Shown: piece by piece, positions 1 through 29,492 of the stretch
How positions within the stretch are numbered: the first letter of the stretch is position 1
Layout of the letters: every line of letters starts with the position of its first letter
Assembly: GCA_964017065.1 (NCBI GenBank)
Contig: OZ024792.1
Location: 1,062,092 to 1,126,091, forward strand
DNA from: Haliclona indistincta
Lineage: Eukaryota; Porifera; Demospongiae; Haplosclerida; Chalinidae
DNA: 64,000 bases
Reading direction: 5' to 3'
The notes under the pieces: model-generated
Database searches by the model: none
What the model saw: the letters and a program-made list of their open reading frames with translations, nothing else
What the model was told of the DNA's origin: nothing
Translations under genes and position numbers: made by a program

Positions 1-919
1 GTCTCTCTCTTGATAGGGTCCACTATAGAGTACATCTTGCCCTCCACCTCCACTGAAGGTGGTCCTCTCCTCCCAGTGGGTGTGGTGCACACACTGGTGT
101 AGTCAGTGGTAACAGTGGTCAGTCCAGTAGTCCAGTCCAGTGGTTGGTAGAGTGCAGCTGGAGAGTCACTGCTGGTATACTGAGCAGCATCATTTGGAGC
201 CGATATTGGTTTGACAAAATTATAGTACACTACTTCAGCTGTTTCATTGTTAGTGTGTTGTCCTAACATGAGTATATAATTCAACCACACACTTCATGCA
301 CTGTAGCATTACAGTTACCTTGTTCAGAACCCTCTGTTGTTATTATTATTATCTCATTGTTTTGTTCACTCTCTGTATCATCTGCCGTAATGTGTTGATC
401 AGTTACATCACTCTGAGAAGGTTCTCCTGTTGCGTTAAGAACTGTTTCCTCTGGCTTGCAGTCATCTGTCATTGATCTGTTTCTGTCAGTCAACATGTTT
501 GTTGTTGTAGTGCTCATGTTTGCAGCCTCTTGTCTGCCCATTCTGCTATACACACTAAATATAACTAACCATATACTAACATGGGTATTACCTGTCTTGT
601 GCATATGGTTCTACCAATTCTATTTCTTCTGCAGCAAACAGTAAATTGACAGATGCATTATGCTATAGTATCAAATACCATTTTCAGGTTTTTTCGTGAG
701 ATTGTATCTTTGTAATCGTCTTCTCTCACAGCAGAGACGGCATCCATATACGATAAGAGTTATAGACTCAACCACTATCACTGCAAACATTAATCCAATG
801 ACCACCAGAGCCACTATTCCCCACTGTGCCTCAATCACCAGATTACACTGACCAGGCAGCCTGAGAAACTCAAGAATGCTACTGGTCTGCTGACACATAG
901 GTCCACAAGAGCAGCTCAT
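1..919 (-). CDS. Short-ectodomain single-pass receptor with ITIM/ITSM tail (partial, runs off left edge)
   Basis: Exons on the minus strand are about 919-679, 628-592, 542-319 and 238-1. The start MSCSCGPMCQQ gives a Cys-rich outside segment of about 33 residues with no signal peptide. One membrane span follows (about residues 34-58), then CCERRR, so the C terminus should be cytoplasmic. The acidic mini-exon (reads EEIELVEPYAQ) is phase 1 to 2, and the tail exons follow. Exon 4 has VYYNFV (ITIM form), TDYTSV (matches the ITSM consensus TxYxxV) and KMYSIV. The tail is open at the window edge, so the gene is incomplete. Its first exon is nearly identical to the one at 4644 and related to 5900, so it is a tandem paralogue. 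Binding of SH2 proteins to the tail is inference. Confidence 0.75.
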
Positions 920-1430
920 TTTGTTGTAGCAGTATTATTTGCAAAGCTATGGAACAGAATAGCAGCTTAATTGTAATACACTCACACGCAGTTACTCGGT
1001 GCAAAATGATGTACTATACTGCTTTAAGAGCACATAAAATTCATGAGTGTAGAAGACCATGTAGAAAACTTCCTTGAGTATCAAATATGTTGTTTGCAAA
1101 TCAAAATGAGAAATCAAAAGGATGTAGAGATAGTATAATTAGTATTGAGGAAATTGGTGTCTGGTCTACAATGTAAATCAACAAGGAGGTAACACAATCA
1201 CAACAACTGTTATAATTTAGTTTCAAACTGGTCAGGATCAGCAGTTGTAACATCAATACTAGACTCCATTGAGCATAGTTTGTTTATGTCAAAATAATCA
1301 ATATTGTGTTGTTAGGAGACAAAGCAAAGTACACTCAGTTTTAATATACATGTAACATGCAACAATAGCATCTACAGTGGTTCTTATCATGTGTTTTCTG
1401 TGCTGTGCCTATACATGATTCACTAGAGTG
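920..1430. other. Intergenic, with one arm of a dispersed inverted-repeat element
   Basis: No gene is seen. Positions about 1213-1285 match one arm of the inverted repeat at 2629-2815. From about 1305 onward the sequence is a duplicate of the region starting near 5040. Confidence 0.5.
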
Positions 1431-1550
1431 CTGTTCCCTCGTCTGTGATAGTGACCTTTAGCACCTCATATGCATCACTGCTAGCTTTGTCCTTCTCTGT
1501 CTTTGGGGATTCTGGCTTTTTGTCAGTTGTCAATTAAGTAGGACAATGCA
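1431..1550 (-). pseudogene. Orphan copy of a receptor last exon
   Basis: Read on the minus strand this repeats the last exon of the receptor at 5900-5149. It contains DAYEVLKV followed by a tail ending in GTAL and the same stop. The acceptor AG of the functional copy (ttattag) reads ttaattg here, so the exon could not be spliced the same way, and no matching upstream exons lie next to it. The duplicated block spans about 1305-1550 versus 5040-5270. It is a relic of segmental duplication. Confidence 0.7.
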
Positions 1551-1913: not shown

Positions 1914-2200
1914 ATGGAAGTAAGTAAAATTAATTGCTTCTCTATAATAATTTTATAGGGTTCAGGCTTGTGTGTTACAGATAGCTTGGAAGATTTTTTA
2001 ATGCAAAATGGAAACTGTACAGTACAGCTTCAGTTTTATTATGTAGCCATTACACTTAGTGGATTAGGGTTTCTGCTCCTTTTAGATATTCTTCAAGGAA
2101 TCGTTATCAATGATATTTATCCACTATGCTTGCAAGTACGGTAGAATCAAGAAGAGCTATGATCTTATCACCAATGGGACCCAAGAAGGTCTGTATTGGC
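1914..2200 (+). pseudogene. Frameshifted copy of the polyproline receptor's first exons
   Basis: A two-exon start (ATG GAA then gtaagt, acceptor near 1958) is followed by a segment homologous to exon 2 of the gene at 8797. The shared part covers the FYYVAI membrane-span start and the KKSYDL region. Near 2109 one extra A shifts the frame (atcaatgat against atcatgat), so the hydrophobic span is broken and translation stops at a TAG soon after. The original frame resumes as KKSYDLITNG after the shift, so the lesion is recent or simple. No tail exons follow. It is probably a dead partial duplicate; a single-base assembly error is the alternative. Confidence 0.7.
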
Positions 2201-4383: not shown

Positions 4384-4644
4384 TCAGAGTGGAGTAATCT
4401 GTCTTATATTCACTGGGTGAAATTCTAGCTCATCTTTAGATTTTTTTCTGTCACAACAGAGGCGGCATCCATGTACAATAAGAGTTATAGACTCAACCAC
4501 TATCACTGCAAACATTAATCCAATGATCACCAGAGCCACTATTCCCCACTGTGCCTCAATCACCAGATTGCACTGACCAGGCTGCCTGAGAAACTCAAGA
4601 ATGCTACTGGTCTGCTGACACATAGGTCCACAAGAGCAGTTCAT
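4384..4644 (-). CDS. Short-ectodomain receptor paralogue, tail lost or unresolved
   Basis: The start MNCSCGPMCQQ and the span are almost identical to the exon at 919-679, including the IEAQWGIVALV stretch. After the membrane span it diverges (CCDRKKSKDELEF) and reaches a stop with no tyrosine motif. No downstream mini-exon or tail exon in the right phase was found before the next gene. It may be a truncated decoy-like copy, or the tail exons may have been lost by duplication breakage. The orphan last exon at 1431-1550 could be a remnant of such a tail, but its acceptor is destroyed. Confidence 0.55.
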   Translation of the reverse strand: MNCSCGPMCQQTSSILEFLRQPGQCNLVIEAQWGIVALVIIGLMFAVIVVESITLIVHGCRLCCDRKKSKDELEFHPVNIRQITPL

Positions 4645-5148: not shown

Positions 5149-5900
5149 CTAGAGTGCTGTTCCCTCGTCTGTGATAGTGACCTTTAGCACCTCATATGCA
5201 TCACTGCTAGCTTTGTCCTCCTCTTTCTTTGGGGATTCTGGCTTCTTGTCAGCTGTCATACTAATAAAACAAGCAGCACAAAACATGAGTGATATGTTGT
5301 AAACTAATCTTACAGCTCATATGATCCATTTGTGTCATCTGCAGTGGTTTTAGGTTCGGCTGATACAGTTTTTGTTTCTTGAGAATCAGATGCAGGTTTT
5401 GCTTGAGAAGAGCCTGCTGCTGCTTCCATTAGCTCATACTCTCTCTCCTCTGTTTTTGATGTGGGTTTTCCAGCTGCTTCTGTTTGTTGCTTAACATTAT
5501 CCATCCTGTAATACAGCTGAATATAAAGGCTTTACTGTTGCATAAGTCTTACTTCTCATATGCATATGGTTCTGTTAACTCCATTTCTTCTACAGCTCCT
5601 ACAGCAACAATAAAACACAAGATTCTAATAATTATTGTTCACTTTTAATAGCCTACCCTTTGGTGATTTTTTCACAAGCTCATATTTATTAGTACGCCGT
5701 CTTCGCAAATAGCAAAGGTAACATCCATAACCAATAATTGCTATTGTCTCAATGATTACTACAACAAACAAGAAGACAAGCAGCACCAGAGTCACCATTC
5801 CCCATTGTGCCTCAACCACCAGTTTGCATCTTCCAGGCAGTTGTACAAACTCAGCAAGGCTGTTGGTTTGTGAGCAATTAGGTCCACAAGAGCAGCTCAT
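5149..5900 (-). CDS. Short-ectodomain single-pass receptor with four YxxL/V-type tail motifs
   Basis: It has four exons. Exon 1 (5900-5657) encodes MSCSCGPNCSQ, a short outside region, one span and YLRRRR. A phase 1 to 2 mini-exon reads AVEEMELTEPYAYE. Exon 3 carries REYELM and GSYELM, with a donor inside the GAGCT after the last one. Exon 4 adds DAYEVLKV and ends near 5149. The full tail therefore has KYELV, EYELM, SYELM and AYEVL, a regular series of Y-E-(L/V) units with acidic/Lys spacers. Exon order and phases match the 919 and 7085 genes. The spacing is wider than a classic ITAM, so each unit is better read as a separate SH2 docking site; that is inference. Confidence 0.8.
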
Positions 5901-6293: not shown

Positions 6294-7085
6294 CTAGACA
6301 TGTATTACATCGTAATCGCCTTCTATAGTATTTTGAATGCTAAAAGTAGGAGTAGTGGTAGCTAATTTTGACGCTTGATTCTGTGTGATGGACGGTTCTT
6401 TTAGTGCAGTTCCAGCATGTAATGTTGTCCTTCCTGATGCTGCGGCATGATGTGACATGTGTTCCACTGTCACTGGAGCATCAGCCAGTCTGTTAAAAAA
6501 TAACAAATCAACTGAGTGTGGAGTATAGCTGGTCTACCTGTCATACAGTGCCTCTGATTGATTCAGGGCTGGTGTAAAGCACGGAGTGGGTGTCTCATAA
6601 TCTGTGGGATCAGCCATCACTCCGACTACAGTATATTCTCCTTGTTGTTGTTGTGCTCTGTAATGATCTATCACATCCTCCTCTGTACATTTACTATAAA
6701 ATCGAAAGCAGACAGTTTACTATTTCACTCATGCATCAATCAATAACTCACACCTTTGACCAATTGTTTCATTTAACTCTAGTACCTGTACACCTGTTCT
6801 TCCTGAGATTATCCGTATGTAATAATTATAGTCATATAATGCTAGTTTTATCTCACTTGGTCTTGAGTGTCGTGCTGATCGATTCTTTAGGTAGTTCTGG
6901 CAGAGTTGCCGTCCATAGTAAAATGCAACCACACACTCAATGATAGCAAATCCAACTAAGAAACCAGCCACACAAAGCACTGCTACAATCCACTGTGCTT
7001 CAATAGATAGGCACTTTTCAATTTCAAAATCAGTGAAAACTTCAGCAAAGTTCTTCGTAACACAGCCCTCACAAGAACAGTTCAT
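6294..7085 (-). CDS. Short-ectodomain single-pass receptor with tyrosine tail
   Basis: The ATG at 7085 gives MNCSCEGC, an outside segment of about 34 residues with IEAQW before the membrane span (as in the 919, 4644 and 5900 paralogues), then a basic stop-transfer. A 54 bp stretch after SARHSRP has a good donor (gtgaga) and acceptor (ctcag) and is a multiple of three without stops, so either splicing or retention is readable; paralogue structure favours splicing. The tail exons give GEYTVVGV, TDYETP, EALYDRL and GDYDVIHV. The last two exons join in phase 2. An in-frame start further upstream at 7112 is not an ATG. Confidence 0.75.
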
Positions 7086-7721: not shown

Positions 7722-8280
7722 ATGGTAAGACACTTTAGTATAGTGTGTAGCTGCTGTGGATGTTTTGCAAGTTATGCTTTGCAAATTAGGATACATCAGG
7801 ATACTCCTTCTGTAACACCAGCTCAGCTGCAAGTCTGTTCAGTGAAACTGGTAGCTGTATCCTAGCAATACCATTTGGATGGGCTATTGGCGTGGTGACT
7901 GTGGCTGTGTATCTGATGGTCTTTCAGTCAGTTGTGCTGGTTGTGTGTTGTTGCTGTCACATCTCTAGATTGAAAAAGAGAAAGAAAAAGCCATCAATAG
8001 TTGATCAGTCTCAAAATGGTTTGTTTCGTCTTACTCTCAGTAAGTTATTTCTGTGTTTTTATGATATAGTACAGAGCAATCCAGAAGAGGAGAATTATGT
8101 GGCGCTCAATGAGCTGTAGGTTACCAGACCATTCTGATTAATGCACTAAGTGTGTTTTCTGGTTATTGTAGACAATCTGGTTCAGTGAAACTTCACTTGG
8201 ACCATGAGCAAGATGTGATGACAGTTGAGAAATGTGAAAATACCTATGCAGTTGTGCAAGACCACCACGAAACTGTATAG
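7722..8280 (+). CDS. Short-ectodomain single-pass receptor, start-codon-only first exon
   Basis: The ATG at 7722-7724 is followed at once by gtaaga. Exon 2 (7790-8018) adds DTSGYSFCNTSSAA, then a span of about 25 residues (VVTVAVYLMVFQSVV) and CCCCHISRLKKRKKK. Exon 3 (8070-8115) gives EENYVALNEL. Exon 4 (8172-8280) gives NTYAVVQD and a TAG. Two tail motifs fit YxxL/V. The donor after exon 2 was chosen because family members end this exon in AATG before gt; a stronger-looking donor 22 bp on is also in frame but would leave a 30 bp intron. The outside segment resembles that of 13520. The model has about 130 residues. Confidence 0.65.
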
Positions 8281-8796: not shown

Positions 8797-10016
8797 ATGG
8801 ATGATACAGTAAGTACAAAACTATAATTGTGTGTCATGTATAATGATATGAATATGTGCAGCAACCACGCATTTGCAATAATAGTGATTGGGGAGTATTC
8901 TTAACAGAACCTGGAGAGTGCAGAGTTGAACTTGAGTTTTATTATGTAGCCATTGCACTTACAGGATTAGGGCTTCTGCTCCTTTTTGTCATTGTTCAAG
9001 GAATCATTATCATGATATTTATTCACTATGCTTGCAAGCACGGTAGACTCAAGAAGAGCTATGATCTCACAACCAATGGGACCCAAGAAGGTCTGTATAT
9101 ACAATATTACTAGTATCTGACAATTCATTCTTCTCTAAAGACGACGAAACTTTAGAACTTCAGCTGAGAAGAGGGTAAGCTGAATAAGCTAGCTTGAAAT
9201 ATAGTTAAAAATTGTTTTAATTTTTCTCTAGGCTTGTTGTAAATTCTCAAGAAGATATAACTGATGCACACGGTACTAAACAATCTCTTCGGAATGTGTA
9301 AGTATCATCATTCACAGCAAACTGTATTACACATCAATGTTGCTTTTAGCTCAGAAGATATGAGATGCAGCTACGACAGACTGCATGGGTCTCAACCAGT
9401 ACTGAACCAGAAGAATGAGACTGCTGCTGCACCTATTCAAGACGGAACATATGACGCTATCAGTGACTTGCCGAACCTTGCTAGAAAGAGTAATGCTATG
9501 ATTAATAATCCGCAATATGCAAGCATAGATCAAAACCAAGCAATTGTTCCACCCCCTCCTCCTCCTCCACCCCCTCTGAACCTACCAGGCACCACATCTA
9601 CTGGTAACAAGAGAGGAGAGCCTGCAGAGGTGTTTAACATTGGGGAAATCGGAGCTGTTTCTGTTGGCAGCTACCAATATGCAAGTGTTGACAAGTCTAG
9701 CAAAGAGCAAGGTCCGCCTATTCCTCCTCCACCTCCAATGCAAGTGGATCTGACCGCTGTTGGCACCAATGAATGGGCCCCAGTACAAGATGCTCAATAC
9801 GCTGTTGTTGATAAGACTCGTAGCTATGACACTCCTCTTTCTCCCACTCCTCCTCCTCCTCCCCCTCCCCCTCCTCCCCCTCCTGCACCCACCACTGAAG
9901 ACTACACAAGTACTTCAGTCAATAGTAATCCAAGCCGAGGAGCTACAGCGCAGACCGTTGATCCGACATTTCAGCTGCAGGCAGCAATTGAAGCATTGTA
10001 TGACAGTGTACAGTAA
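8797..10016 (+). CDS. Single-pass receptor with polyproline and tyrosine-motif tail
   Basis: Exon 1 encodes MDDT. Exon 2 gives QPRICNNSDWG, a short outside region and a hydrophobic span (LGLLLLFVIVQGIIIMIFI), then KHGRLKKSYDL. Two short exons follow, the second with a strong donor (gtaagtat) near 9299, and a long last exon starts near 9351. The tail has GTYDAI, PQYASI, YQYASV, AQYAVV and ALYDSV. Between them lie proline runs of 9, 5-6 and 12 residues, which could bind SH3, WW, EVH1 or profilin-type partners. A repeating unit (a YA(S/V)(I/V) site, Asp plus Gln or Lys, then a proline run) is visible three times. Alternating phosphotyrosine and proline sites suggest a membrane-linked scaffold, perhaps toward actin; that is inference. 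Confidence 0.8.
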
Positions 10017-10174: not shown

Positions 10175-12224
10175 TCATTTCATTATAGTAGAGTATGTAT
10201 TTTCAGCCAGCTGGGTGCTGTCGAGAGACATATATGGGTTGTGACGTTGACCACTTCCTGTTCCTTGAACCTCTTTCTCAACAGCATCACCATCTTCATC
10301 AACCACTCGTGCTGGTGGTAACTGGTAGTGACCTTCATTCACCATTTGCCGTCTTTTCTCTGTTTGAACAACGAAGGCTAACTGAGGATCTACCTCATAC
10401 ATTCCATTCTCAACTAGCTGTAGAACCTCCTCACAGGGGTTATCAATGGTATCTTCCTCTTTGGTTTCTTGTGAAGATTCCTTGGTACCAGGTATCTGAA
10501 CATAAGTATAGGCGTAGTCATCTTCTTGCTGTGTTGGTGTGTCATAGATGTTAGTGGCAGGGACTGGAGGACCTTTGGGAACGCTGTAACCAAAATCACT
10601 AGGGTTTGTCACTGTGTAGTAGTGAGGTAGTTCTTGTTTTGGTGGAGGAGGGTGAGAATAACCACAGGCTTCATATTGGGCAACTTGGTCATCAGACAGA
10701 CAGAGACGCCCTTCGGTAGCTCCATCTGTATCAGCTGTCGTGTTGAAAATGTTTCCTATTTTCGATAGAGTAGGATGAGCAGAAGTGGATTGACCACTTT
10801 GTACTTGTTTTACAAGATAGGATCCTTGAGTGAGAGTACCGGGATTGTGACACTCATAATAGTCATCACTCATCAATGCTTGTGGTCTGAAAATAACAAA
10901 GACGTGTGTCTGGACACTTCATACATCACATAATGTACTAGACTACACTGCATGCTACTCCCATACTCACCTACAGGCTTCAATGTGGGTGAAATCTTTC
11001 CCATTAAAGTCACCTGCGATGAAAAGAAAACACAAAGCTAATGTTTCAACATGTGTATGCACCCACGTCTATACACAAATCAGTCTAAATATACTTAGCA
11101 ATTCTATTGACATTTTAACACTGACACTCTAACACTGAAACGCCCAATCATGCACAGCAATTTACCTTGACTGGAGATAACAGTAGTGCGATATTTGGTG
11201 GCTCTGTGTTTAAAACAACGATGCGCCGTGAGGCTGGTTAAGACACATGTGCTCATAGCTAAAATAAGACACACTCCTAGAGTAATGAACAGCCAATATA
11301 TCGGCACACTCTCATTATGCTCCATAACTGTTGTTGGTGACATCGATAGAACTGAAGAGATAGAAGCAATGATAGCTTGTCCTTTAGAAAGAGGGAGATT
11401 TGATGGATTGAGAGATGAATGAGAAGAAAGGTAAAGTTTGGAGGAAGTTGACAAAGATATTAATTTTTTAGTGATGAAAAAACCAGCAATATTGTCATTG
11501 CCATTTGGTAATGACAGATCACGATTTAAGATGAATGATGAAGTAGGGGAAGGAGTCCATTCATCAGGAGCTATATGAGTAGTGGTAGAGTAGATACCTT
11601 GCATTGTGGTAGCTGGAGAGATCATTGAAGTAGAAGTGGATTGACTATCAGCCATAGTTGAACGTGAATCGATCAAAGTCGTGTTAAATGTTTGCTTGTA
11701 GTGAGCCTCAGCCTTGAGACAAAATGGTGTACTCAGATTCCCTAGTGGTTCGTGGTGGGTGCAGGATGTGTCACATTTGAAGCTGCGACACCAGTAGCAG
11801 CCAATAGCTGTACTGGATATATTCCTCAATAGAAGTGGTTTGCTGAAGTGTGAAGCAGCCACCGCTGGATCACGATGAGGTGCAGAGAAAGGGCTGATTC
11901 CGCAGTGTGACACTATGTTGATCTGACATCTTTCATCTGTGCTTGGCTGACTTCTATACCACAGAATGTTCAGATCTCGTATGCTTAGACCTTCTGGAAC
12001 TTTTATAGTGCAATTCAGCTTGAGACTTTTTCCATAAGGATTCATAGAAATGGTAGTGGACGAAGGCTCGTTTTCATAAGGGAAGCTTGCACTGACTTTG
12101 ATATAGACATGAAAGACATAGTCATCTTATGTAAACAAAGATGTTTAACAAAGAGAATACCTTGTTTTTGTGCTATTATGAAGACCATGACCAGAGCACT
12201 CAGAAATGTCCTACAATAATCCAT
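10175..12224 (-). CDS. Ig-like domain receptor with long tyrosine tail
   Basis: Exon 1 encodes a signal peptide (MDYCRTFLSALVMVFIIA), phase 1. The large exon holds an Ig-like fold: Cys in LKLNC, Trp in ILWYR and YWC near the end of the domain, with extra cysteines nearby. A Ser/Thr-rich stalk and a span (WLFITLGVCLILAMSTCVL) follow. After a phase 1 to 2 mini-exon (GDFNGKDFTHIEA) comes the tail exon ending at 10175. Tail sites include GSYLVKQV, YTYVQI, GMYEV, NPYMSL and NTYSTI. The Trp-to-YWC layout fits a V-type Ig domain, but the usual D-x-G before YxC reads TAIGC. The 3' end converges with the 8797 gene at 158 bp. Confidence 0.8.
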
Positions 12225-13520: not shown

Positions 13521-13910
13521 TGTTGTACAATTTTTAATCTACAATGAAAACAGTTAAATCTAACCGTAATCATGCTAGACCACAGCTTACCATTTGAAGA
13601 CCCACAGCCAGATAATTATTGCACGCCACAACTCAGCTGGGAATGAGAATGAATGAACTGAAAGAGACGCTAAATAAATAACTTTCGAACCATATGCTGT
13701 GTACTTTATTGATTATACTTTGTGTGTGCATAGAACCAGCATTAATTAAGTGCGTTATTCTTCTGAAGTTTTCTTAGTTTTCTTAGACAGAGAAACATCT
13801 GCGAGCAGCTAAAACATCACTACATGACACACAAGATAATACACAGACCACAATACATAGAACTATATACACATGCACAATTTGCTGTAGCACTAAAACT
13901 GCATAAGTCT
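13521..13910. other. Intergenic
   Basis: About 390 bp between two minus-strand receptor genes. No feature is seen. Confidence 0.4.
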
Positions 13911-16060: not shown

Positions 16061-16774
16061 TTACTTATAGCATGTTGAGCTGGAAACAATTAGACACATC
16101 TTAGCTCACTGCATGTATGGAGCTGAAGAGCTGGACTAAAGCCACACTTGTCACTATGGAAACATATTGCTAGGTTCAGTACAATGCTACATTGCTAAGT
16201 ATATTCAAGCATCATGTGGTTTTAGTAAACACCATCCTTCACGAGCTCATAGTAGACTGTGTGAAATACGATTTGAAGGTCAACTGTGCTCTCGTGTCTG
16301 ATCCACATACCGCATGTATCATCCACGCGGCATGGTGGTTTTCAGCTTACTGCCGGTAGTATCCACCGTGTGGCTATAACGATAAGTTAATCAGCTCTGG
16401 TTCTTACTGTAGCATCAGACAGTGCCTGCTGACATTGAGCGATGACGTGAATGGTCAGTAAATAGGCGTCCATTTGTGATGTTATGAAAGAACATCAAGT
16501 AGTTATAAAAGAAGGTGCAGCCCCATGGTCTTGCTGCCCTCGCATACAATACTAAGTATGTCTCTTGCTGTTTAGCTCAAAATGTGACATATACATACAA
16601 ACATACAAATTCTAAAGTGTAATGTACGATCAAATTCCTCACGCTAAGGCGCTCGGCAATCACAAAAACACACAATGTGTATTAGGCTAGAAGGTATTAT
16701 TGACAATCGTAATACATGACAAAATAATTGTTTATGGCTAGACTCTAAAACCTTATTAATCTTTTAGACTTCCA
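16061..16774. other. Intergenic
   Basis: No gene, RNA or repeat could be recognised. Confidence 0.4.
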
Positions 16775-17520
16775 CTAACATAAATTATGGTCATCGCTGG
16801 CTTTTATCCATAGTCTGTTTTTCTGTGTCTTATCGTTGAAACCACTATAGCTTTCTTTATTGTCTACAACAGATGGTGGGGACCTTTTCTTTATTCCATC
16901 TGTTCTTTTGTTGATAATAGCATAATCCTCAGTAGAATAGTTGCGCACAGCAGGTGGTTGTGAATTTATCTCTATACTAGAGGTTTCTGATTTTGCAGCA
17001 GCCATGGTTGCTATTTCGTCTTCAGCAGCTTCTTTCCTCTATGACCAGCCTTTTTGACAACTGTGTAATCTTCGGGAGAAGAGTTGAGCACTCCTTGAGT
17101 TGCTCTATGGGGGTCTTGAAGACTCTGTATTTCTGTCATCCTCGTCTTTATCTATAGTAGCATATTCAGACGTTTCTAGTTTTGTGTCAGTTCCAGTTTT
17201 GTCACCAGCAATGACATCATAAAGACACACGACTGCGGTCTCGTTAGTAACACCATGACACTCTTGAACAGTGTATGAGTTGTGACTGCAGGCAGAGTTT
17301 ATTGAACAATGCTTCGATGAAGTGGGGCAACAATAGGTAGAAAAACACAAGATAGTGAAGTTTGATCAATATTCTACTTACGTTTCTTGCTGTGTGTATA
17401 TGTTTGGAGCTGATTTCTTGTATTTGAATTTGCACAAACAAGTGCACAGCAGGACACACTGTACAAGCACAATCGCTGCCAGTAATCCAGTAATCAGAAA
17501 CAATCCTAAAACCGGCAAAC
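16775..17520 (-). pseudogene. Receptor with ITIM-type tail split by two apparent frameshifts
   Basis: A spliced exon (about 17516-17381) encodes a span (LFLITGLLAAIVLVQCVLL) and CKFKYKKSAPNIY. The next exon gives LYDVIAG and SEYATIDK (strict ITIM) and stops at 17105, just after a run of five C in the + complement sense. Skipping one base there opens a second block with EDYTVVKK, and another shift opens a third block with EDYAIINK ending at 16775. All three blocks keep family-like motifs, so either the gene is recently broken or the assembly has two small errors. The first coding exon was not found. If the early stop is real, the product still has a span and two docking sites. Confidence 0.6.
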
Positions 17521-18858: not shown

Positions 18859-19908
18859 CTACATTTGGACAACATCGTACTCGGGCTCTTCATTGGCTGT
18901 TGTGCTGCTGTCATTTGGCATATATGGAAGTGCTGGTTGGTTAGTGAGAGCTGAAGGGCATGAGCTAGCTAGACACTCCTGACTACGAGAAACAGCTGAC
19001 ATTGGTTTGGCTGGCAGTGTCCTTAGTTTCTTTGTGCTGTTCTGCTCAACGATGGTATCGTATGTGCTGTCCTGGTCATCTCCTAGAGTAGAGAAATCCA
19101 CTGTTCTTCTTCGAGTGTCATTGTGGTTTAGTTTATTATAGTCAGCAGCTGTATCATTGCTGTCAGCTGCTGCTGAGCTGTCATGATGAACTATCTCATC
19201 ATAGTTGGAAAGCACAGGAGGCAGTGGGGGCGGAGCCTCCTCAACCTTGTCTCTCTTCTTAGTCTTCTTTGCCATAATTATCGATCTTGGCATATTGTAC
19301 ATTTTCTACCACCGCACCTCCTGTCTCTGGGTTATACACATTGGCAGGAGGTAGAACAGCTGCTTCCGGCTTCTTTGGTTTCTCTAGTGTGTTGTTTGCA
19401 GAAGTACTAATATTAGCATAGTCAGAACTAGGGTCACATTTGGCAGCAGCTGGCACTTTCTTTAGCTGTGTTGTTTTGTTCACCAAGTCCTCTCTCACCA
19501 TATCATACATGCTGTCATTATCTTCTTCTTTTTCTGTGTGTGCTGTTGGTTGTGTGGTCTGCTTGGTAGTACTCTGCTGATCATCACTAGCTTTATTATC
19601 AGGTCTATGTATTGTAGTAACATGAGGCAAAGCAAGAAAGCTGCACTTACCGTGGTTTCAGCTCATGTCCATTGCTTGCTTCAATAGCTATTAGATGAAC
19701 AAAGTTTATATTTTTTGTTAGTTGCAAACTCTAGATTACCTTTCTCTTGTGTTCTTTGTCTCTTTCTCTTCAAGAAACAGCCACACGCAATCAGAGCAAT
19801 GCACTGTACAATCACAATCAATAAAAGAGCTCCAGCTAGTGAAAATAGTAAATAGCTGTCTACAGCTATACAGCCACTATCTGGCTCTGTAAAATTTGAA
19901 CAGTCCAT
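18859..19908 (-). CDS. Short-ectodomain receptor with at least five strict ITIMs, split across two frames
   Basis: Exon 1 (MDCSNFTEPDSGC) has a span (LAGALLLIVIVQCIALIA) and KRKRQRTQEKG. A mini-exon (AIEASNGHELKP, phase 1 to 2) and the tail exon follow. Frame 1 gives SMYDMV, SDYANI and VQYAKI and stops at 19259. The +1 frame, overlapping from 19,302, continues with a proline-rich stretch, SNYDEI, STYDTI and EYDVV to 18859. All but the last fit (S/I/V/L)xYxx(I/V/L). No splice signals explain the frame change, so it is a frameshift mutation, an assembly indel or (less likely) recoding. A partial copy of this tail lies at 15,701-16,060. Confidence 0.7.
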
Positions 19909-20237: not shown

Positions 20238-21895
20238 TTACACCATTTGGTGGTTTGGTGGAGGGACAACTCGAGGGCCGTATGCGTCATCTGTATCTTG
20301 ACTCGCAAGGGCGGGGTCAGTAGGCAGTTTGGTGTCTATTATATCCATCATGTTTTGAAGACTCATGTACATCTTACGCTGCTTCCTATCGAATGCAGTG
20401 ATGTCAGCAGCAGACTGTGACTTGGATAGCGTGACAGCTTCGATATCTTCTTGTGAAGCTTCTGATGGCTTAGTGGAGTGCTCTGTCATATGAGAAGCAG
20501 AGACTGGATATTCTGGTATAGAGCCCATTCTGTGTCTATCCCTGTTAGCTAGTATGCTGGAGTATGTTGGATCATCAAATATGTTGTCTGCTGACTGAGA
20601 ATGTTGCATTCCCTCTTTCTTCAGACGTTCCTTCTTTTGCGATATGGCTTCTATATCAACCAAGCGATACCCAAACTTGTCCAGCATTCGTGCTCTTTTA
20701 TCCTCTTTTGTCTCCAAAGCAGTAACAGCAGGTACTTCCTCTTCCTCTTCAACTGTCTCCTCGTCATCTTCAGGCACGACCACTTCAGGCGTCATCTCCT
20801 TCTCTCCTGCCTCCTGTTTTAGACTATCTATCAGCTGCTCCAGTACCTCGCAATCGGGTGACCCCGACGATAAGTAGCTGACGGTTGTCTTGCTCGAGAT
20901 TTCTAAATCACAAGAGTCGTATCTCTTGATGCGAGCGACATGTTTAGTAGAATCATAATTTTCCAATACCTTGCACAGCAGAGGAAAGTCTGTCATAGAC
21001 CTGTTGACAATAGTAGAACAATCATTATCATTGGATTAACAAAGACAACACACCAATATTTATTTTTAAACTTCAGTCCATGTTTGGAGTCATTATAGTG
21101 ACCTTAGCATAATATTCTTACCCTGTGTCTTCGGGCTTGACTGTTTTGTGTTTAGGGCTACTCTCCTTCTTTTCTGCATAATAGACCAAATACCACATAT
21201 GAGGACACTAAACAAACCTCAGATATGCTATGTCAACACAGTCAATATCCGTGACTATGGTGCATTTTTGTTCAAATTATGAGACTACGGATCTAGTTAA
21301 TGGAAGCTGTGAAAGCATACACACACACAATGGGTTCACTTGGGCGTGGAGAGTAAGCACAATATGACTCACCAACTTCTTTTTTCTGAGATTCAAGAGC
21401 TATCTTTTGCCTCTTTCTTCGTTCTTTCTTGTTGCGTATGTGACGTTCACACAGAATGCACATGACGGCTAGTAGAGCTACTATCACCAATATTAGAGCC
21501 AATATGACACCCACGACTATGTACGTGAACAGCAAACGTCTGAAATGGGAGGGGTCGGCATCTGGTGTCTCTGTGAGATTGCTCGACGTGGGTGAGGGCT
21601 GAGGTGTGCTGGACAGGACCAAACCCACTGTTCTGGTTGTTGAAGCAAGCAGGGGAGTGGTTGATGAAGTTGACAGGTCTCCAGGGGATTGGGTTGCATC
21701 GCCTGACCCGACAACAGCTGAATACAAAACAAAGATCTGTGTTATCAAAGCTGTTTCATTGATGCAAGACTACATCCAAGCAAGCATGCAATACAGAACA
21801 ACTATAGCTCAATACTATTGATAATACTCACCTTGTGCAATGGAACTGGAGAACAGTGACAGCAACAAAACAACTTGTACACACAGTGTCTTCAT
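20238..21895 (-). CDS. Single-pass receptor with Ser/Thr-rich ectodomain and acidic tyrosine tail
   Basis: Exon 1 (from 21895) is a signal peptide (MKTLCVQVVLLLSLFSSS). Exon 2 has a Ser/Thr/Pro-rich outside segment of about 60 residues with likely O-glycosylation, a span (YIVVGVILALILVIVALLAV) and CERHIRNKKERRKR. The phase 1 to 2 mini-exon reads EKKESSPKHKTVKPED. The tail exon (to 20238) has ENYDST, an acidic run, FGYRLVDI, PTYSSIL and KMYMSLQNMM. It keeps the signal-peptide architecture of the Ig receptors but has no Ig domain. The tail has coiled-coil-like charged stretches. No ligand can be inferred. Confidence 0.8.
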
Positions 21896-22519: not shown

Positions 22520-23950
22520 TTAATCTTCTTCAACTATTTTCTTATCGTCCTGAGTTAAGGCAGTATGGGTGTGTCTGATGCGATGAGCTGAGGGATTCCG
22601 TACAGCTGCTTTCGGTTTGATGGTTACTCGAGCGTTGTGTTCAGGTTTTTTGACCGGGAAGCCGCGTTTTCTTCTTTCCATGCTCCCGGTGTGTGTTCTA
22701 GGCAGCGATTCTCCTTCGGCTATTCGTTCTCTCTCTCCCAGCATCGTGTATACTGACAGATAGTCACGAGTATTTGTTCTCAGCGCTTGATATGCTCCAC
22801 TTTTGCTGTTCTCATTCTCTTCATCCTTCTTCTCGATTTTCTTCACTGTATTGGAAGCCATAGACTCTATCTCAGAATAGCTTATGTAGGTGATGGAATT
22901 TGAGTTGTTAGACTCCTCCATATTATTATCTGTGAATAATAGTAACACAATATTTAAGTGCACACATGCACAATAATGATTGTCATACCAAGTGTAGTCT
23001 CTTTATCAATGGAACCGGTGTCTTCCAGCAGTGACTGCTTTTTGTGCATGTACATGCACCCGAAAGTTAATACAGACACAAGGACGACTCCGCCCACTAT
23101 CACCATCACTACCACCATCACTACTCCAGCTATCGCTCCACCAGAAATTGTCTTATCGTGTCCACCGTCTCCACTACTGTTATTCTTAGCTGTGTCTCTA
23201 GTATCCAGATGGCGTTGTTGACTGCTGTCAAGATGCTGGCATGCTGGCTTGTGTGTGTAGTGAGCAGATGATTGCAATGAGAAGAAGCTACTCTGTAAGA
23301 TACTGGTTCTGTTTGTGCTTGAAAGAACACACCAATGTTGTCCAACATTACTGACTAGAGGCATAGCTAGTTGAAGAGTACTTGACATGAAATAACAGCC
23401 GTTACTCTGTCTGTGTGTTTGAACCTCTGTACTGGTGTCCTTGTGTTGGGCATTGGTGTACCAGGCTAGTTTGTGTGTGCTTGAGGCAATGCCTGACACA
23501 CTACACACCAGCTTTGGTACATGTTGATGCCGGTAAGGATCACAGGAGAAGGTAGGGAGGGGTTTTTGGATAAAGATAGGTTGGCAGAGATTGCCTAAAA
23601 TAAGAATAAACATAATGGGGCATGGCACTTTATGGACTGTGTTATATAACTTTCTTGTTATGTTGGACACTCATGCCTTTGTGGGTGAGGCCCAATAGGT
23701 GACATGGGTGAAGCAATTTTATACCCACGCATGCTGGGCTTTCCTTTCTTAACCTCAAAGCTAACTTGGATGCTAACCCTGATTTGATTATACCAAAAAT
23801 GGTTTATTCATCAATGGTTTCAGGAAACAACACATGGTCTATTTTGCTACTTATTAGAGGCCTGTTGGAGCTAAAGCTTTATTTCTTACCATTGCTGTTG
23901 CAGACCAGAACAGCTAGCAAGCAAACAAGAGTAGCTGTGTAGACAAGCAT
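22520..23950 (-). CDS. Ig-like domain receptor with short ITIM tail
   Basis: Exon 1 (ATG at 23950) is a signal peptide (MLVYTATLVCLLAVLVCNS), phase 1. Exon 2 has an Ig-like domain: KLVC, LAWYTN and QHWC near its end. A linker follows, then a Gly/Val-rich span (AIAGVVMVVVMVIVGGVVLV) and MHKK. The tail exon starts in phase 1 (DNNMEES), so it lacks the usual phase 1 to 2 mini-exon. Sites are ISYSEI (strict ITIM), GAYQAL and the closely spaced pair DYLSVYTML. It ends in a basic stretch at 22520. Its start codon faces that of the next gene at only 18 bp. Confidence 0.8.
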
Positions 23951-23968: not shown

Positions 23969-25495
23969 ATGGCTGCTGGATACTGGACTGGAATCTGTTC
24001 TCTGTTGGTGCTGCTTACAATGGCTGCTGCTCAAGATAACAACGAAGGTTAGCTAGCTATCCAGGGTCACAATGCACTAGAGACATGTATGGCGTAGGCA
24101 CTACTCAGCTATTGAGCTGCATGTTATGATAGACTTACTCACATATCACTATCGGTGTTTGCTACTATAGTACATTACTACCATTGTAACATGTTTGCAA
24201 TATCTTCTATAGATCTCTGCACTATTCAATTTCTGACTCAACCTCCAGTGAATTTGCCCTGCAATCCATACGACGAGACTCGCAACTTTCTTCAGCTGCA
24301 GTGTGACATATCCGTTCCACGAAACAGACGTAACTTCATCAACGTTGTTTGGTACAGAATTCAAGCTGGTGAGACAGAACCGGAGAGTGTCCTTAGCAGA
24401 GGACCCTTCAAGAGCACGTTTGTAGTGCGGAGAAGGTTGATTGTTGATGACCTAACATTGGTCCAGAGCACGCTACAGCTGCGGAACATCACTGAAGAGG
24501 ACATGGGCATCTACTGGTGCCAGATCGAGGATGAGCAAGGAGAAGAGCCTGTGATTCATCGATCGTGCACTACGACTAATCTGAGTTCCTCGGACACCTA
24601 CGACCATCTCACTCTCTGTCCTGATCGTACTTATTTCTTCTCATTGGGTCCGGTGTGTGTAGAACCTGAAAATGAGTGTAGCATGGATAACAATACTAGC
24701 AGTACGTCAATGCCCAGCTCAACACCAGTGCCTTCTTCTCCCACTACTCCTGTCATTAATGACGCTCCAAACAGCAACAATACTGAACAACAACTATCTG
24801 AGTGGTTTATTTCCATCACTGTCTCTGTGGTATTGCTACTTGTTCTGCTTGTCCTTGGAGTGTTGACAACTCTGATTATAGTTTTACTTAAAGCAAAGCA
24901 GAAAATGAACAAAGGAGTTGCCAAGACCAGCAGTACGTCAGCTTGGTGTCTAAAAACTCACAACCACAAAAATCAGTGTTCGGGTATTCCTTTGCCAGTG
25001 ACGCCAGTAGTACATGTTCATGTAACTAAACTGGCATCAACGTCAACTGATATGCCTCCATTGCCTCGACATTTGAATGTTGGAAGACAAGTGTCAAACG
25101 ATAGTGTCTACGCTGAACCGAATTGTCCTGTTCGTTTTGTCAGTGACATGGAAACGAACTTGTCCGAAACAGGCTCTCTCTACAGCAACCCTCACTTTGA
25201 CCAAGAATCCAGTGAAGAGCCTTCCAGAGTCGAAAGAGATGGAAACTTTTACCAGATCATTGCAAAGTCTCCCATCACAAATGAGAGTGACAATAAACTA
25301 GTTACTTACACAATTCCAAACATAGTCAAACAAAGATCAAACACAGCTGGGAATAGCAGTGTTGTTGTCACTATTAATGATGGCGATGGAGAACAAGAAG
25401 AACCAGCCTATGAAAATCCCCCTCAATATGCTCGCCTACGTGCTGACACACAAGACGTTCCCGGAATATACAGCCTTCCTTCAAATACTAACTAA
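23969..25495 (+). CDS. Ig V-type domain receptor with SH2-motif tail
   Basis: Exon 1 is a signal peptide (MAAGYWTGICSLLVLLTMAA), phase 1, spliced near 24212 to one long exon. The Ig domain shows LQCD, VVWYR, LQLRNITEEDMGIYWC (canonical D-x-G-x-Y-x-C) and further cysteines. A Ser/Thr/Pro stalk and a span (ITVSVVLLLVLLVLGVLTTL) follow. The tail of about 200 residues has VYAEP, LYSNP, FYQII, TYTIPN, the pair AYENPPQYARL, and IYSLPS. YxEP and YxNP sites suit Src-type and Grb2-type SH2 domains. This is the best-formed Ig domain of the cluster. Confidence 0.85.
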
Positions 25496-26592: not shown

Positions 26593-28943
26593 TTATCCTT
26601 TAATTTTTCTCTTTGGCTGAGTTTCTGGTACAGCGTACTTCTGATCTGGATCAATAGTAGCCATGTCCAGGCACGTGTAGGTGTGGCTGTCAGTTTGATC
26701 AACAGACTGACTCATACTATCTCCAAACTTGAGCATGTGAGGCAGAAAGAACGGCCCAGTGAAATCTCCACTGTTAGTTGAATCAACAGACATTTGCTCT
26801 GCTAGAGGGTCCTTGGCGAGGTAGGATCCCAGTGCTCTCTTGACTGGGGTAGTGGGCTCAACTGCCGGTGTCAGATTGTCGTAGGCCTTGTTCTCATCCT
26901 CCGAGCCTACTGTCGGCAGATACTCATAGTCCTGAACCTCCAGGTCTATTCCTTGTAGAGTTAACATGTCTTTATCAGCAGTAATGTCCTCCAGCATGTG
27001 ATAACTGTCTGAATTGCCTAGGGCTGATGCTGCTTGCTCCTCGATAACCTGAAAATTCAGGTAGCCTCTGCTTCGTGGGCTGTTGCTGAGAGGTGACATA
27101 GGAAGAGGATTGACAGACTCAATTTTTCCCTTTAGTTTCAAATCATCACCGGAAATGGAAGAGGATCGTATGTGAGAAGGATATATGTTGGCGTAGGGAC
27201 CATCTAGTGAATGAGGTAGAGTCGATGAAGTGCTGCTCTGTGTGAAACCACGAGATACATGCTCTAGTTTCCTGTATCCAGAGAGAAGTGGTGAGTGAGT
27301 GTTAGGATTATAGTTTTGTCTCGGTTTAGTGTGGTCTAGTTTGCCATATCCTGTCAACTGCTCTATGATGTCGGGATCTGGACTACGATGCATTTGCCTG
27401 TTGGCTGGATCGCTAGCCAGAGCTGAGTAATGGGGGACCATCGGTAGGTCAGGTTTGGTGAGCTCTCCTCCATAATGGTGCTGCTTATGAGAAGGCGGAG
27501 TAGCTACTTCTGTGTCTGGTTCGTCATTGTCGTCAAGGTCTTCATAGTCTCGCTCTAGAGTGCTGTAGATGGCAGTGTCTGGCAGGCAGTTGATCATGAG
27601 GTCTGTTTGCTGGGTCATAGAGGTTGAAGGTCGTCTCTGATGATGTGGTGAGCTATAATCAATAACACAAGTGTAAACAAATTAACCATTAGTCAACCAT
27701 TGTGAATTATAATCATGTTAATCATGTTACTTACCCTCGTTGTGAAATCGGTTTTTCCTCCTTAGCTGTATAAGAGTGAAAGAAGATATTCAATGCAAGT
27801 ATTGTATTGTGTACAAGCTGTGGTAGTTCTAATGTAAGATCTATGGTACAACTATCAATTTCCTCTTTATGTTCATGAACAACTAAACACTATTGTGCTA
27901 GTAATGAGATACAATGCATTTATGTTTTACCTTTTTTTGATTTCAGCACACACAGTCCAACACAGATGATGCTGAGAGCAACGATTAGTACAGCAAAGAG
28001 TACCGTCAGTCCAACCACAATAAACAGCCATACTTCGTAATTGTCTGGAACTCCCATGAGTTCTCCTCGGTCTAAAGATGATTGAGTAGGACGTGGTAGG
28101 TTAGAGGAGGTTGGCCTCTGTGTTTCGGTGTTTGTTGGTCGCTGTGTGTTAGTGCTTGTCGTTGGTCGCTGTGAGCTGGTTGGCTGTAGCTGGATGTTAG
28201 TGGTTGATGTCACCGTGGGATTATTTATCTTATTTGTTGCAGGTGTGATGGTGGTTAGCCATGAAGATGATGATGTTGAAGGAGCTTTAATTTGTGGTTG
28301 TGTAGTAGTAGTGCTAGATGATGATGATGATGATGCATTGCTTGGTTCCACGTGTACATAGTGACACTTGGCTGCTTTAACTGATTGTGCAACTGTTCCA
28401 CAAGACTGGTATCTACTGTATGAATCTTCATTCGATAGGTCCATCTTTTGGCTCACTGGCCAGAGAACCTCTCCGTCTTGATATGCTCGGCACCAATAAT
28501 GACCTGGACTAACAATTTTTACCCTGAGACGACACGCAGTGGCAACCTTGTCTGGTGTAAATGTCTTCACTGTTTGAATTAGATACTTGGTTGAGTTCTG
28601 AAGAGGAGCTGATGTGTTTTCAGTGTTAGACTGTAAGTTTTCTGAGTAGAACCACCTGATATCCAAATTTTTTGGTGCTTCCACTTTACATATCAAGTAC
28701 AAATCTGTTTGCGTTTCTCCATAAGGATTGCAGTCCATTGGTGCTGTTGCTGGCCATCTTGTGAAACAGAACTTGAATGAATCTGTAGCAAATAACACCA
28801 GGAGCTAACACATGTGTTGCCAGTCATGCAAGAATCCACAAGCTGCAAATAAAAATAATTACACTGCACTACTCACCAGCAGCTGCTCTTGCTGCAATAG
28901 CCAGTGTAATGAATCCAATGATTTGAAGTCCAGTACCCGCCAT
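26593..28943 (-). CDS. Ig-like receptor with about a dozen YxxL-type tail sites
   Basis: Exon 1 (ATG 28943) is a signal peptide (MAGTGLQIIGFITLAIAARA), phase 1. Exon 2 has an Ig-like domain (LYLICKV, IRWFY, HYWC), a long Ser/Thr/Pro stalk and a span (WLFIVVGLTVLFAVLIVALS). Mini-exon AKEEKPISQR (phase 1 to 2) and a 340-residue tail exon follow. Tail tyrosines include IYSTLERDYEDL (two YxxL three residues apart), HYSAL, GYGKL, SGYRKL (strict ITIM), PYANI, SYHML, DYEYL and AYDNL. This is the richest tail in the window. The ATRRP-like stalk repeats (QRPT units) suggest O-glycosylation. Confidence 0.85.
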
Positions 28944-29492
28944 GGTGTGTAGACTAGCTAGTACTGTACAGCAGCTTCAATGCACCTCTGCACCACGTCA
29001 GCACACTCGTCTTGTGAGTTAGCTTCACTGCCGGGATCCACAATTTATCTAATGCAGTGGAATTTGATCGATGCAAGTATCAAAGCGTTTGCTTGACCGC
29101 ATTCAAGAGCGCTGTGTTTGCAGACAAGACACACCTCGTGTGCAGGAACCCGGTATCCTAGCAATAGACATGAAACAACCAATCAGATTGCAGTATGCCT
29201 ATTGCCTAACTTGCCATAACTTTTGAATAACCTAATGTGTTCCAACAATAGATAGTGAATAACGATAATGCAAAGTGTATAGGTACTACAGGTTATACAC
29301 CTGGTAAACTTATGCTGTAGTGACTTTGTAGTCGAGCAGAACAGCCAGGTGTGTGAACTTTCATCATAATCTCTTTTCGCTTTTACGTAACGAAAACGTT
29401 ACTCGTCAGTCTTTACCGTTTTACTTTAATTATACGACTCCAGAAAATTTCAACATCGAGTTACGATCTCAGCTCATCTCCAAGATTAAGAC
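28944..29492. other. Divergent intergenic region, Ig receptor and UBE2F
   Basis: About 550 bp that should hold both promoters. No core motif is identified with confidence. Confidence 0.45.

Follow-up and report, generated by a model that had tools for sequence, protein, structure and literature searches.

Organization of the receptor cluster

The window, the whole stretch of 64,000 nucleotides analysed here from the sponge Haliclona indistincta, encodes a group of membrane proteins in its first 29 kb. Between positions 1 and 28943, we modelled 14 single-pass genes exon by exon (R1-R5, S1 and S3-S10). Three are on the plus strand (S5, S6 and R2) and 11 on the minus strand. Tail tyrosines are present in 13 of the 14 genes; the exception is S9, which has none. 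The initial annotation described a dense cluster of single-pass, tyrosine-tailed genes on both strands, with membrane spans followed by basic residues. The gene models bear out both points.

R1-R5 start with a signal-peptide-like segment and have a larger predicted ectodomain than the S genes. In S1 and S3-S10, the predicted span is preceded by 19-37 residues. All the predicted introns of these sequence-based models are GT...AG, with sizes of 35-295 bp. The membrane exons were positioned by hand, and the start of R1 exon 4 was set from homologues.

Decayed copies are scattered among the intact genes. At 15705-16064 (minus strand), the open reading frame and the sequence reveal a shortened S1 tail copy that lacks a membrane exon. 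S2 (16775-17518, minus strand) is a short-type gene with a broken frame, likely decayed, with Q in the span by eye. Both were kept outside the statistics. Reading by eye also located an isolated duplicate of the final exon of S8 at 1431-1530 (minus strand), and tblastn picked up the membrane exon of S5 a second time, decayed and in two pieces, at 1968-2190 (plus strand).

The cluster runs on leftward past the window edge, where an array of Ig receptors is encoded. The window is one end of this much larger receptor complex, a point that the initial annotation did not notice. The array receptors have 115 matches genome-wide, and the tandem array is found at six or more sites across the genome. 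The last exon of S10 is the same tail exon as that of the array, and the region is also represented by a variant contig. Neighbouring genes encode caspase and IgGFc-binding domains.

Selection on the array was estimated from open, near full-length exons: for the Ig part, 22 of 42 tblastn pieces in C10 and 27 of 39 in C2; for the tails, 15 of 15 and 10 of 16, respectively. The dN/dS ratio was about 1 in the closest pairs only (dS<0.1; 0.95 in C10 and 1.10 in C2), and 0.38-0.67 beyond them. Some 15-codon windows reach 1.2-1.4. The contrast between Ig and tail was not significant. We did not retain positive selection for the Ig domain of the array, because the bootstrap intervals of both parts lie below 1 or span it and there is no clear signal.

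Receptors with a larger ectodomain

R1 (669 aa, 26593-28943, minus strand) has exons at 28877-28943, 27931-28782, 27735-27765 and 26593-27652. Its signal-peptide-like start is followed by an Ig-like region, an S/T-rich stalk, one span and a 372-residue tail with 17 tyrosines, 10 of them in Yxx[ILV] sites. R2 (453 aa, 23969-25495, plus strand) presents a signal-peptide-like start, a V-set-like Ig domain, a stalk, a span and a tail with seven tyrosines (SVYAEP, SLYSNP, NFYQII, VTYTIP, PAYENP, PQYARL and GIYSLP). In Pfam, the V-set match of R2 (4.6e-05, 24.0 bits) is under the cut-off of 26, and the ig match (21.9 bits) is just over its cut-off of 21.8. A profile search with R2 against the PDB matched Ig proteins (best 1.1e-05), and its relatives in the protein database are P0002-P0004.

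R3 (358 aa, 22520-23950, minus strand) also has a signal-peptide-like start, an Ig-like region, a span and a tail, with the sites ISYSEI, GAYQAL, RDYLSV and SVYTML. It passes the Pfam C1-set model (2.6e-05, 24.9 bits against a cut-off of 21). R4 (407 aa, 20238-21895, minus strand) has the signal-peptide-like start, but an S/T-rich stalk instead of a recognised Ig domain in its ectodomain, then a span and a 299-residue tail with eight tyrosines. R5 (592 aa, 10175-12224, minus strand) presents a signal-peptide-like start, a divergent Ig-like region, a long S/T-rich stalk, a span and a 17-tyrosine tail. Its first intron, of 35 bp, is the weakest join among the models.

R5 has no Pfam match at all. 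R1 and R5 pass none of the curated Ig models, and the array domain stays below the cut-off (ig, 20.0 against 21.8 bits). An ectodomain alignment that includes R5 shows C30, W46 and C102 common to all seven rows. K and R are absent from the span core in R1-R5 (5/5). Charge pairing between the S proteins and R1-R5 was discarded, as these cores carry no basic residue.

Short-ectodomain genes

The nine S genes form one short-ectodomain, adaptor-like family, which the initial annotation overlooked. S1 (183 aa, 19259-19908, minus strand) has Q in the span and SMYDMV, SDYANI and VQYAKI in its tail. A frame at 18859-19302 overlaps S1 and carries further tyrosine motifs beyond a frame break. An ATG-only first exon opens S3 (265 aa, 13911-14921, minus strand; Q in the span; tail sites DEYEEL, AEYIEV, ALYENL, EDYEVI and ESYVDI), S4 (304 aa, 12510-13593, minus strand; E in the span; 11 tail tyrosines) and S6 (128 aa, 7722-8280, plus strand; Q in the span; ENYVAL and NTYAVV). 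S5 (335 aa, 8797-10016, plus strand) has Q in the span and a proline-rich tail with 11 tyrosines, six of them Yxx[ILV]. E is found in the span of S7 (227 aa, 6294-7085, minus strand; 12-tyrosine tail), S8 (197 aa, 5149-5900, minus strand; CxxC; 9-tyrosine tail) and S10 (263 aa, 1-919, minus strand; CxxC). The last exon of S10, at -27 to 262, crosses the left edge of the window. S9 (86 aa, 4384-4644, minus strand) is a close copy of the ectodomain and span of S10, and the two differ by the presence of the tail. The database protein P0005, encoded on a contig of 244,329 bases, is near-identical to S9 and ends identically. By sequence, probable orthologues are P0012 for S4, P0010 and P0015 for S5, and P0011 and P0014 for S7.

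The short outside parts are mostly cysteine-bearing. All nine S genes have E or Q in the span core (E in five, Q in four), compared with none of the five R genes, and the same holds for the five database relatives of S proteins examined. In the segment from four residues before the end of the span to 15 after it, at least one cysteine is present in 9/9, and a strict CxxC in 5/9. The tails contain 2-12 tyrosines in 8/9.

Searched against Pfam, the eight proteins S1, S3-S8 and S10 gave nothing above the cut-off, and a zeta- or DAP12-type match was absent. The values for S1 with SCIMP (0.09) and RHEX (0.018) are sub-threshold. Profile searches of the ectodomain-span exons against the PDB reached a best E of 0.14. 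Likewise, searches with two of the S genes gave no convincing further relative in the rest of the same genome.

Tyrosine motifs in the tails

We compared the 14 modelled tails, with the corrected R1 model, against 5000 shuffles. Y..[ILV] occurs 55 times against 19.0±3.9 in shuffled tails, about threefold more, and none of the 5000 shuffles reaches 55. At position +3, I, L or V follows 55 of 112 tyrosines (18.1 expected, p=6e-16). This hydrophobic residue is by far the strongest preference around the tail tyrosines. Acidic residues are also in excess at +1 (31 vs 16.4) and -3 (30 vs 16.4).

On the other hand, the strict ITIM is not above chance (7 vs 4.7; reached by 926 of 5000 shuffles), and neither is the ITSM (2 vs 1.6; 2462 of 5000), with membership defined as [SIVL]xYxx[ILV] or TxYxx[ILV]. 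S, I, V, L or T at -2 is even rarer than expected (9 of the 55 Y..[ILV] sites vs 18.2). The canonical ITAM (Yxx[IL]-x6-8-Yxx[IL]) is absent from the 14 tails. Relaxed Yxx[ILV] pairs 6-12 apart number 5 vs 0.8, a value reached by 12 of 5000 shuffles.

The control sets and the single-tail tests were computed with an earlier R1 model, with a different start of exon 4. With that model, Y..[ILV] shows no excess in the five R ectodomains (3 vs 5.9), in three POT transporters (15 vs 17.4) or in two SHP2-like proteins (12 vs 9.3, reached by 198 of 1000 shuffles). Tail by tail, 5 of 13 have no significant excess (R2, R4, R5, S7 and S8), and S6 (p 0.048) and S10 (p 0.046) are marginal.

All seven motifs quoted in the initial annotation (SMYDMV, SDYANI, VQYAKI, TDYTSV, ISYSEI, SEYATI and SGYRKL) are found. 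SMYDMV and SDYANI occur twice, in S1 and in the membrane-less remnant at 15705-16064, and SEYATI sits in the frame-broken gene at 16.8-17.5 kb. The proposal that the tails exceed shuffled sequence in motif content stands for Yxx[ILV] and fails for the strict ITIM and ITSM. These cannot be taken as the common motif, and "ITIM cluster" was dropped as a class label because their counts are at chance. The tails do carry a real motif signal, that of generic Yxx(hydrophobic) sites rather than of ITIMs.

Conservation of tail tyrosines and SH2 readers

Tyrosine conservation could be followed in two of the 13 tails, R1 and R2. R1 gives a single match in the genome, and the protein database contains 21 further relatives of its tail open reading frame. 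The alignment has 21 rows, the window's own and 20 more, after the fragment P0020 was dropped. Eleven of the 17 tyrosine columns are identical across all the rows. Mean identity is 0.776 in the 17 tyrosine columns against 0.376 in the 324 others, a difference reached by none of 20000 permutations. For the hydrophobic residue at Y+3, it is 0.82 (11 columns) vs 0.33 (63).

S[GD]YRKL is kept in 21/21 rows. In the 20 rows measured, a YxxL lies upstream of it at a spacing of 24 (18 rows) or 25 (2 rows); no more than 13 of the 21 rows have T or S at -2 of this upstream site. By sequence, R1 appears as the exception to the result that ITIMs are at chance, S[GD]YRKL being conserved. In R2, the tail tyrosines are identical at 7/7 positions in P0002 and 4/4 in P0003; the residues adjacent to them show no significant gain in conservation over the other positions (p=0.23).

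The same genome encodes two SH2-SH2-PTP genes. One of the proteins matches SHP-2 (PTPN11) chains over residues 1-528 of 564 (E 1.9e-181). A Syk-like SH2 pair is also present, with an SH2 best matching SYK. The idea that the tails are SH2-type sites in an SH2 signalling context gains support from the conserved tyrosines in both comparable receptors and from these SHP-2-like and Syk-like readers.

Comparison with known systems

The S family seems laid out as LAT/PAG adaptors, with no detectable homology to them. In the passages cited, transmembrane adaptors (TRAPs) have a short outside part, one span and a long tail with several tyrosine sites (PMC2803307). The S genes share a short outside part, one span, juxtamembrane cysteine and a multi-tyrosine tail with LAT, PAG, LIME, NTAL, SIT, TRIM and LAX, among which the juxtamembrane CxxC palmitoylation motif belongs to LAT, LIME, NTAL and PAG only. 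Unlike vertebrate TRAPs, they have E or Q in every span core and are clustered with Ig receptors, whose tail exon S10 uses. CD3zeta, FcRgamma and DAP12 have D in the span. The S genes resemble them in the very short, mostly cysteine-bearing outside part and the polar span residue, and differ in the lack of a canonical ITAM, in E/Q and in longer tails.

R1 resembles PD-1 and BTLA (ITIM plus ITSM, SHP-2) in its Ig-like ectodomain, single span and SxYxxL with a second YxxL 24-25 away, and SHP-2-like genes are in the same genome. The tail tyrosines of PD-1 are given as Y223 and Y248, 25 apart, in the cited section of PMC7078208. However, in R1 the upstream site is T/S-x-Y in part of the rows only, it is the distal site that forms the strict ITIM, the tyrosines are 17 instead of two, and the ectodomain passes no Ig model.

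By description rather than by sequence, the cluster is similar to Hydractinia Alr and Botryllus FcoR, with clustered Ig-type single-pass receptors and tyrosine-motif tails. Here the motifs are mostly generic, and a short adaptor-like family is added. As in KIR, LILR and SIRP, tandem Ig receptors adjoin possible signalling partners. Nevertheless, the paired-receptor-like pool suggested in the initial annotation finds no support as a classical paired-receptor design: there is no canonical ITAM, no charged pairing in R1-R5 and no evident activating/inhibitory twins. Different ectodomains (short in S10, Ig in the array) on one tail exon are the reverse of the paired-receptor arrangement.

Proposed model and alternatives

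We consider it probable that the window forms one end of a receptor complex built from two classes of membrane protein, whose tails would serve as SH2 docking strips. The sequence itself gives the gene structures as predictions, the excess of Yxx[ILV], the tyrosine conservation in R1 and R2 and the SHP-2-like and Syk-like genes; phosphorylation, SH2 binding, the sign of the signal, the adaptor role and the ligands are inferred. Among the latter, SH2 docking of the tails is a well supported prediction. Ligand would be bound on the outside by the Ig-type receptors R1-R3 and R5, by the array receptors and by R4, which has a stalk only. The Yxx(hydrophobic) sites of the tails would be phosphorylated by Src-family or Syk-like kinases, and SH2 proteins could then assemble there. 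R1 would most likely recruit SHP-2 through its conserved YxxL pair and act as an inhibitory or tuning receptor. S1-S10, with hardly any outside part, would be membrane-anchored, transmembrane-adaptor-like proteins (LAT, PAG, LIME). They may oligomerise via the span E/Q, and their tails would gather effectors for nearby receptors.

The clathrin-adaptor signal is likewise Y-x-x-bulky hydrophobic. The tail sites could then be AP-2/AP-1 sorting signals of trafficking receptors, a reading that fits how common such sites are in single-pass proteins and the dominance of hydrophobic +3. It is improbable in view of the surplus of acidic residues at -3 and +1, the number of tyrosines (as many as 17 in a single tail, distributed along 372 residues in R1), the conserved R1 pair with 11 invariant tyrosine columns, and the SH2 readers in the genome. 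We also regard as improbable that the S proteins are ITAM-type chains (CD3zeta/DAP12-like) that associate with the Ig receptors by means of polar or charged residues in the membrane. The short cysteine-bearing outside parts, the E/Q of the S genes and their relatives, the shared cluster and the relaxed Yxx[ILV] pairs argue for it; the missing canonical ITAM, the R span cores without K/R and the absent zeta/DAP12-type match argue against it.

As for function, the cluster may have an immune or self-recognition role. A self/non-self or immune complex comparable to Hydractinia Alr or Botryllus FcoR is a tentative possibility. The repeated tandem array, the decayed copies, the tail sharing, the variant contig and the caspase and IgGFc-binding domain neighbours are consistent with it. 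In the parts cited of PMC12065747, Ig domains with ITIM/hemITAM tails are reported at the ascidian locus and such motifs for Hydractinia candidates; discrimination in ascidians and cnidarians is concluded to rely on ITAM and ITIM pathways, and the candidate allorecognition proteins are described as not conserved among sponges, cnidarians and ascidians. Against this, the array has no clear positive selection, and R1 and probably S4, S5 and S7 look conserved, not rapidly evolving, because they have relatives elsewhere. The cluster could instead encode ordinary adhesion or developmental receptors with tyrosine-kinase signalling and no self-recognition role, which we hold to be rather unlikely. 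R1, with its single-copy tail and 21 other database relatives, resembles a housekeeping receptor, and the passages cited of PMC11999971 treat sponge IgSF proteins as adhesion and cell-recognition molecules. However, adhesion alone leaves the array, the tail sharing and the adjoining adaptor-like family unexplained.

Among the open-licence literature matches listed, no title or abstract opening describes such a sponge cluster. More speculatively, and somewhat doubtfully, it would be a clustered recognition system of expanding Ig receptors and LAT-like adaptors, with common tyrosine tails read by SHP-2/Syk. Inhibitory signalling of the checkpoint type, through paired sites 24-25 residues apart, would then be older than the split between sponges and other animals. 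If the SH2-docking model is true, a sponge Ig complex together with SHP-2-like and Syk-like genes would extend the ITAM/ITIM signalling logic to sponges. The S genes would represent an adaptor design of LAT type that shows no detectable kinship with its vertebrate counterpart, and the locus would be directly testable for sponge recognition.

Predicted genes of the window

The window lies at G000:C10:1062092-1126091, in a genome of 144.0 Mb and 46 contigs. We built the gene models with a small splice-aware gene finder; membrane exons were then placed by hand and the joins were checked. This gave 14 predicted single-pass genes in 1-28943. Their predicted introns are all GT...AG and measure 35-295 bp. 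Tyrosines are present in the tails of 13 of these models, so the dense cluster proposed by the initial annotation (at least 13 single-pass genes with tyrosine tails in 29 kb) is upheld at the level of gene prediction.

The models are of two kinds. R1-R5 have a signal-peptide-like start and a predicted 87-296 residues ahead of the span, signal counted. In the nine short-ectodomain models (S1 and S3-S10) the predicted span is preceded by 19-37 residues. The first coding exon is modelled as ATG alone in S3, S4 and S6; these exons and the first intron of R5, at only 35 bp, are the least secure parts of the models. Decayed pieces lie amid the cluster. S2 has broken frames, the S1 tail recurs in truncated form at 15705-16064, the last exon of S8 has a stray copy at 1431-1530, and a degraded version of S5 occupies 1968-2190.

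Just right of the receptors are exons of a cyclic-nucleotide phosphodiesterase (PDEase_I; 34507-35070, + strand). A tandem array of related multi-pass proteins follows at 37906-59137 (- strand). One copy (45710-47299) exceeds the Pfam cut-off for PTR2 peptide transporters, and by eye the array has at least two further copies close to full length, plus partial ones. Transposase pieces occupy 62950-63995 (- strand); one matches DDE_3, and they look Tc1/mariner-like by eye.

Motif content of the tails

We compared the 14 tails (2815 residues, 122 tyrosines) with 5000 shuffles. The pattern Y..[ILV] occurs 55 times against 19.0±3.9 in shuffled sequence, a count reached in 0 of 5000 shuffles, which rules out tails of random motif content. 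Position-wise tests considered the 112 tyrosines located at least 8 residues past the predicted span. Isoleucine, leucine or valine follows at +3 in 55 of them (expected 18.1, p=6e-16). Acidic residues are over-represented at +1 (31 vs 16.4 expected) and at -3 (30 vs 16.4), and not significantly at -1 (23, p=0.057). The five R ectodomains, three window transporters and two SHP2-like proteins, used as controls, have no significant Yxx[ILV] excess. Tested singly, 8 of the 13 tyrosine-bearing tails reach p<0.05 (R1, R3, S1, S3, S4, S5, S6, S10) and R2, R4, R5, S7 and S8 do not, with p values uncorrected for multiple tests and an earlier R1 model.

The initial annotation also listed ITIM and ITSM among the tail motifs. 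As the motif common to the set they are not supported: across the 14 tails strict ITIM counts 7 vs 4.7 in shuffles, ITSM 2 vs 1.6, and canonical ITAM is absent. Only 9 of the 55 Yxx[ILV] sites carry S/I/V/L/T at -2 (expected 18.2). What exceeds chance is a generic Yxx(hydrophobic) pattern rather than ITIM.

Conservation of the R1 and R2 tails

The R1 tail ORF retrieved 22 database proteins. Apart from the window's own, they show 31-81% identity and probably come from other sponge-like species. The alignment as scored holds the window's R1 and 20 others, with fragment P0020 dropped. Mean identity is 0.776 in the 17 tyrosine columns and 0.376 in the remaining 324, a difference reached in 0 of 20000 permutations, and 11 of the 17 tyrosine columns are invariant across the 21 rows. 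Hydrophobic residues at Y+3 are likewise better kept (0.82, 11 columns) than other hydrophobics (0.33, 63 columns).

The site S[GD]YRKL is kept in 21 of 21 rows. Upstream of it stands GYG[KR]L, spaced by 24 residues in 18 rows and by 25 in 2; the pattern misses P0018 (GYNKL). In 13 of the 21 rows, T or S stands two residues before the tyrosine of this upstream site. We liken the pair to the tyrosines of PD-1, ITIM Y223 and ITSM Y248. According to PMC7078208, one binding mode has SHP-2 engage the two tyrosine sites through its pair of SH2 domains, and in cells the bridging of two PD-1 molecules via Y248 is favoured.

In R2, tail tyrosines are identical in 7 of 7 positions with database relative P0002 (other residues 145/194) and in 4 of 4 with P0003 (89/138). 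Residues adjacent to R2 tyrosines are not significantly better conserved (p=0.23). The R2 sites YAEP, YSNP and YENP seem closer to other SH2 classes than to ITIM.

The short-ectodomain family

The nine ectodomain-plus-span exons (S1, S3-S10) align as one divergent family. All nine have E/Q in the 21-residue span core and none of the five R genes does (Fisher p=0.0005, which overstates the independence of the S genes because S8-S10 are related copies). The residue recurs in five database relatives (P0010, P0011, P0012, P0014, P0015) among 12 family proteins, where P0016 duplicates the P0015 span and six others are the window's own or near-identical. Each S gene has at least one juxtamembrane cysteine, and five of nine have CxxC.

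Genome searches with the S4 and S8 exons found relatives in this cluster and one weak match each on contig C3 (E 0.0039 for S4; 0.0015 for S8, with three stops). For the other seven exons the search covered 214 kb on C10 plus 86 kb on C2, and all matches fell inside the window. Eight S proteins gave no Pfam family over cut-off, and the best PDB profile match had an E of only 0.14. Relatives of S5 and S7 are listed together on a 10,434-base contig and again on a 515,746-base contig. This suggests a conserved S5-S7 linkage among database relatives, with contig identity judged from matching sizes. In another assembly, a contig of 244,329 bases carries near-identical versions of the S9 and S10 exons (P0005 and P0007), which suggest allelic variation at the locus of the window.

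The S family shares the layout of vertebrate TRAPs, as set out in PMC2803307. It may work like them; the Pfam and PDB searches detected no homology to a known TRAP.

An Ig-receptor array beyond the window

In the 50 kb left of the window, exons for Ig-type receptors, their spans and their tails form a tandem array. Their Ig domain has 115 matches genome-wide, query and fragments counted in. On C10 these lie at 0.92-1.06 Mb, continuous with the window, and at 0.27-0.31, 0.69-0.71 and 4.89 Mb, with short fragments near 0.53 Mb; elsewhere they lie at C2 1.90-1.98 Mb and C8 6.50 Mb. Many matches contain stops, so the array is partly decayed. Its sequences give no firm sign of positive selection. 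The last exon of S10 is the tail exon of the array receptors (88.9% identity to the query tail). Outside and inside modules have therefore been exchanged or copied.

Other domains occur in or beside the array. In one model an IgGFc_binding domain (PF17517, 8.9e-46) is predicted to be joined to the array Ig domain as well as to a span and a tail (C10 ~1049860-1053300; window -12231 to -8797). A Caspase-like domain (PF00656, 9.9e-18) adjoins an array Ig exon, and the gene finder chains both (C10 ~1029700-1032160; window -32388 to -29927). Plexin-like extracellular repeats, seen by eye, have a predicted span and a tail with repeated YYVNDDLFP nearby (C10 ~1042640-1047200; window -19450 to -14886). 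A reverse-transcriptase-like ORF inside the array was also noted by eye (C10 ~1017180-1020370, + strand). Further dense groups of Ig exons are on C9, C3, C8 and C2 (e.g. C9:6.81-6.87, C3:8.94-8.96 and C8:12.73-12.76 Mb).

SH2 readers in the genome

SH2 matches number 90 at E<=0.001, counted by exon, with 150 of 151 candidates scored. Two adjoining genes, each predicted as single-exon, encode SH2-SH2-PTP proteins. For one of them, residues 1-528 of 564 match SHP-2 (PTPN11) chains (E 1.9e-181). In another stretch (L015), tandem SH2 domains occur in a third gene, where inspection by eye also suggests PTP-like sequence. At C8:9.49 Mb a pair of SH2 exons precedes one in which visual inspection suggests the glycine loop of a kinase. 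Pfam assigns the first of the pair to SH2; the best match of the second is SYK.

Interpretation

The predicted structures, the Yxx[ILV] excess, the conserved R1 and R2 tyrosines and the SH2 readers come directly from the sequence. Receptors of this kind are already known, since PMC12065747 reports Ig receptors bearing ITIM/hemITAM tails at a Botryllus locus and ITIM/hemITAM motifs in Hydractinia candidates. Within the open-licence literature searched, four aspects appear new: the probable sponge setting, the mostly generic Yxx(hydrophobic) sites, the conserved R1 pair as candidate docking sites, and the clustered adaptor-like family.

Yxx(hydrophobic) sites can also be read as sorting signals, and we consider it unlikely that this is their main reading. 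A role in immunity or self-recognition is compatible with SH2 docking; we put it forward tentatively, as a possibility short of probable. The cluster is probably one of SH2-docking receptors plus adaptors. Src/Syk-type kinases would phosphorylate the tails, and SHP-2 would dock at R1. The S proteins may serve as adaptors, with E/Q helping oligomerisation, and the shared tails would give mixed output.
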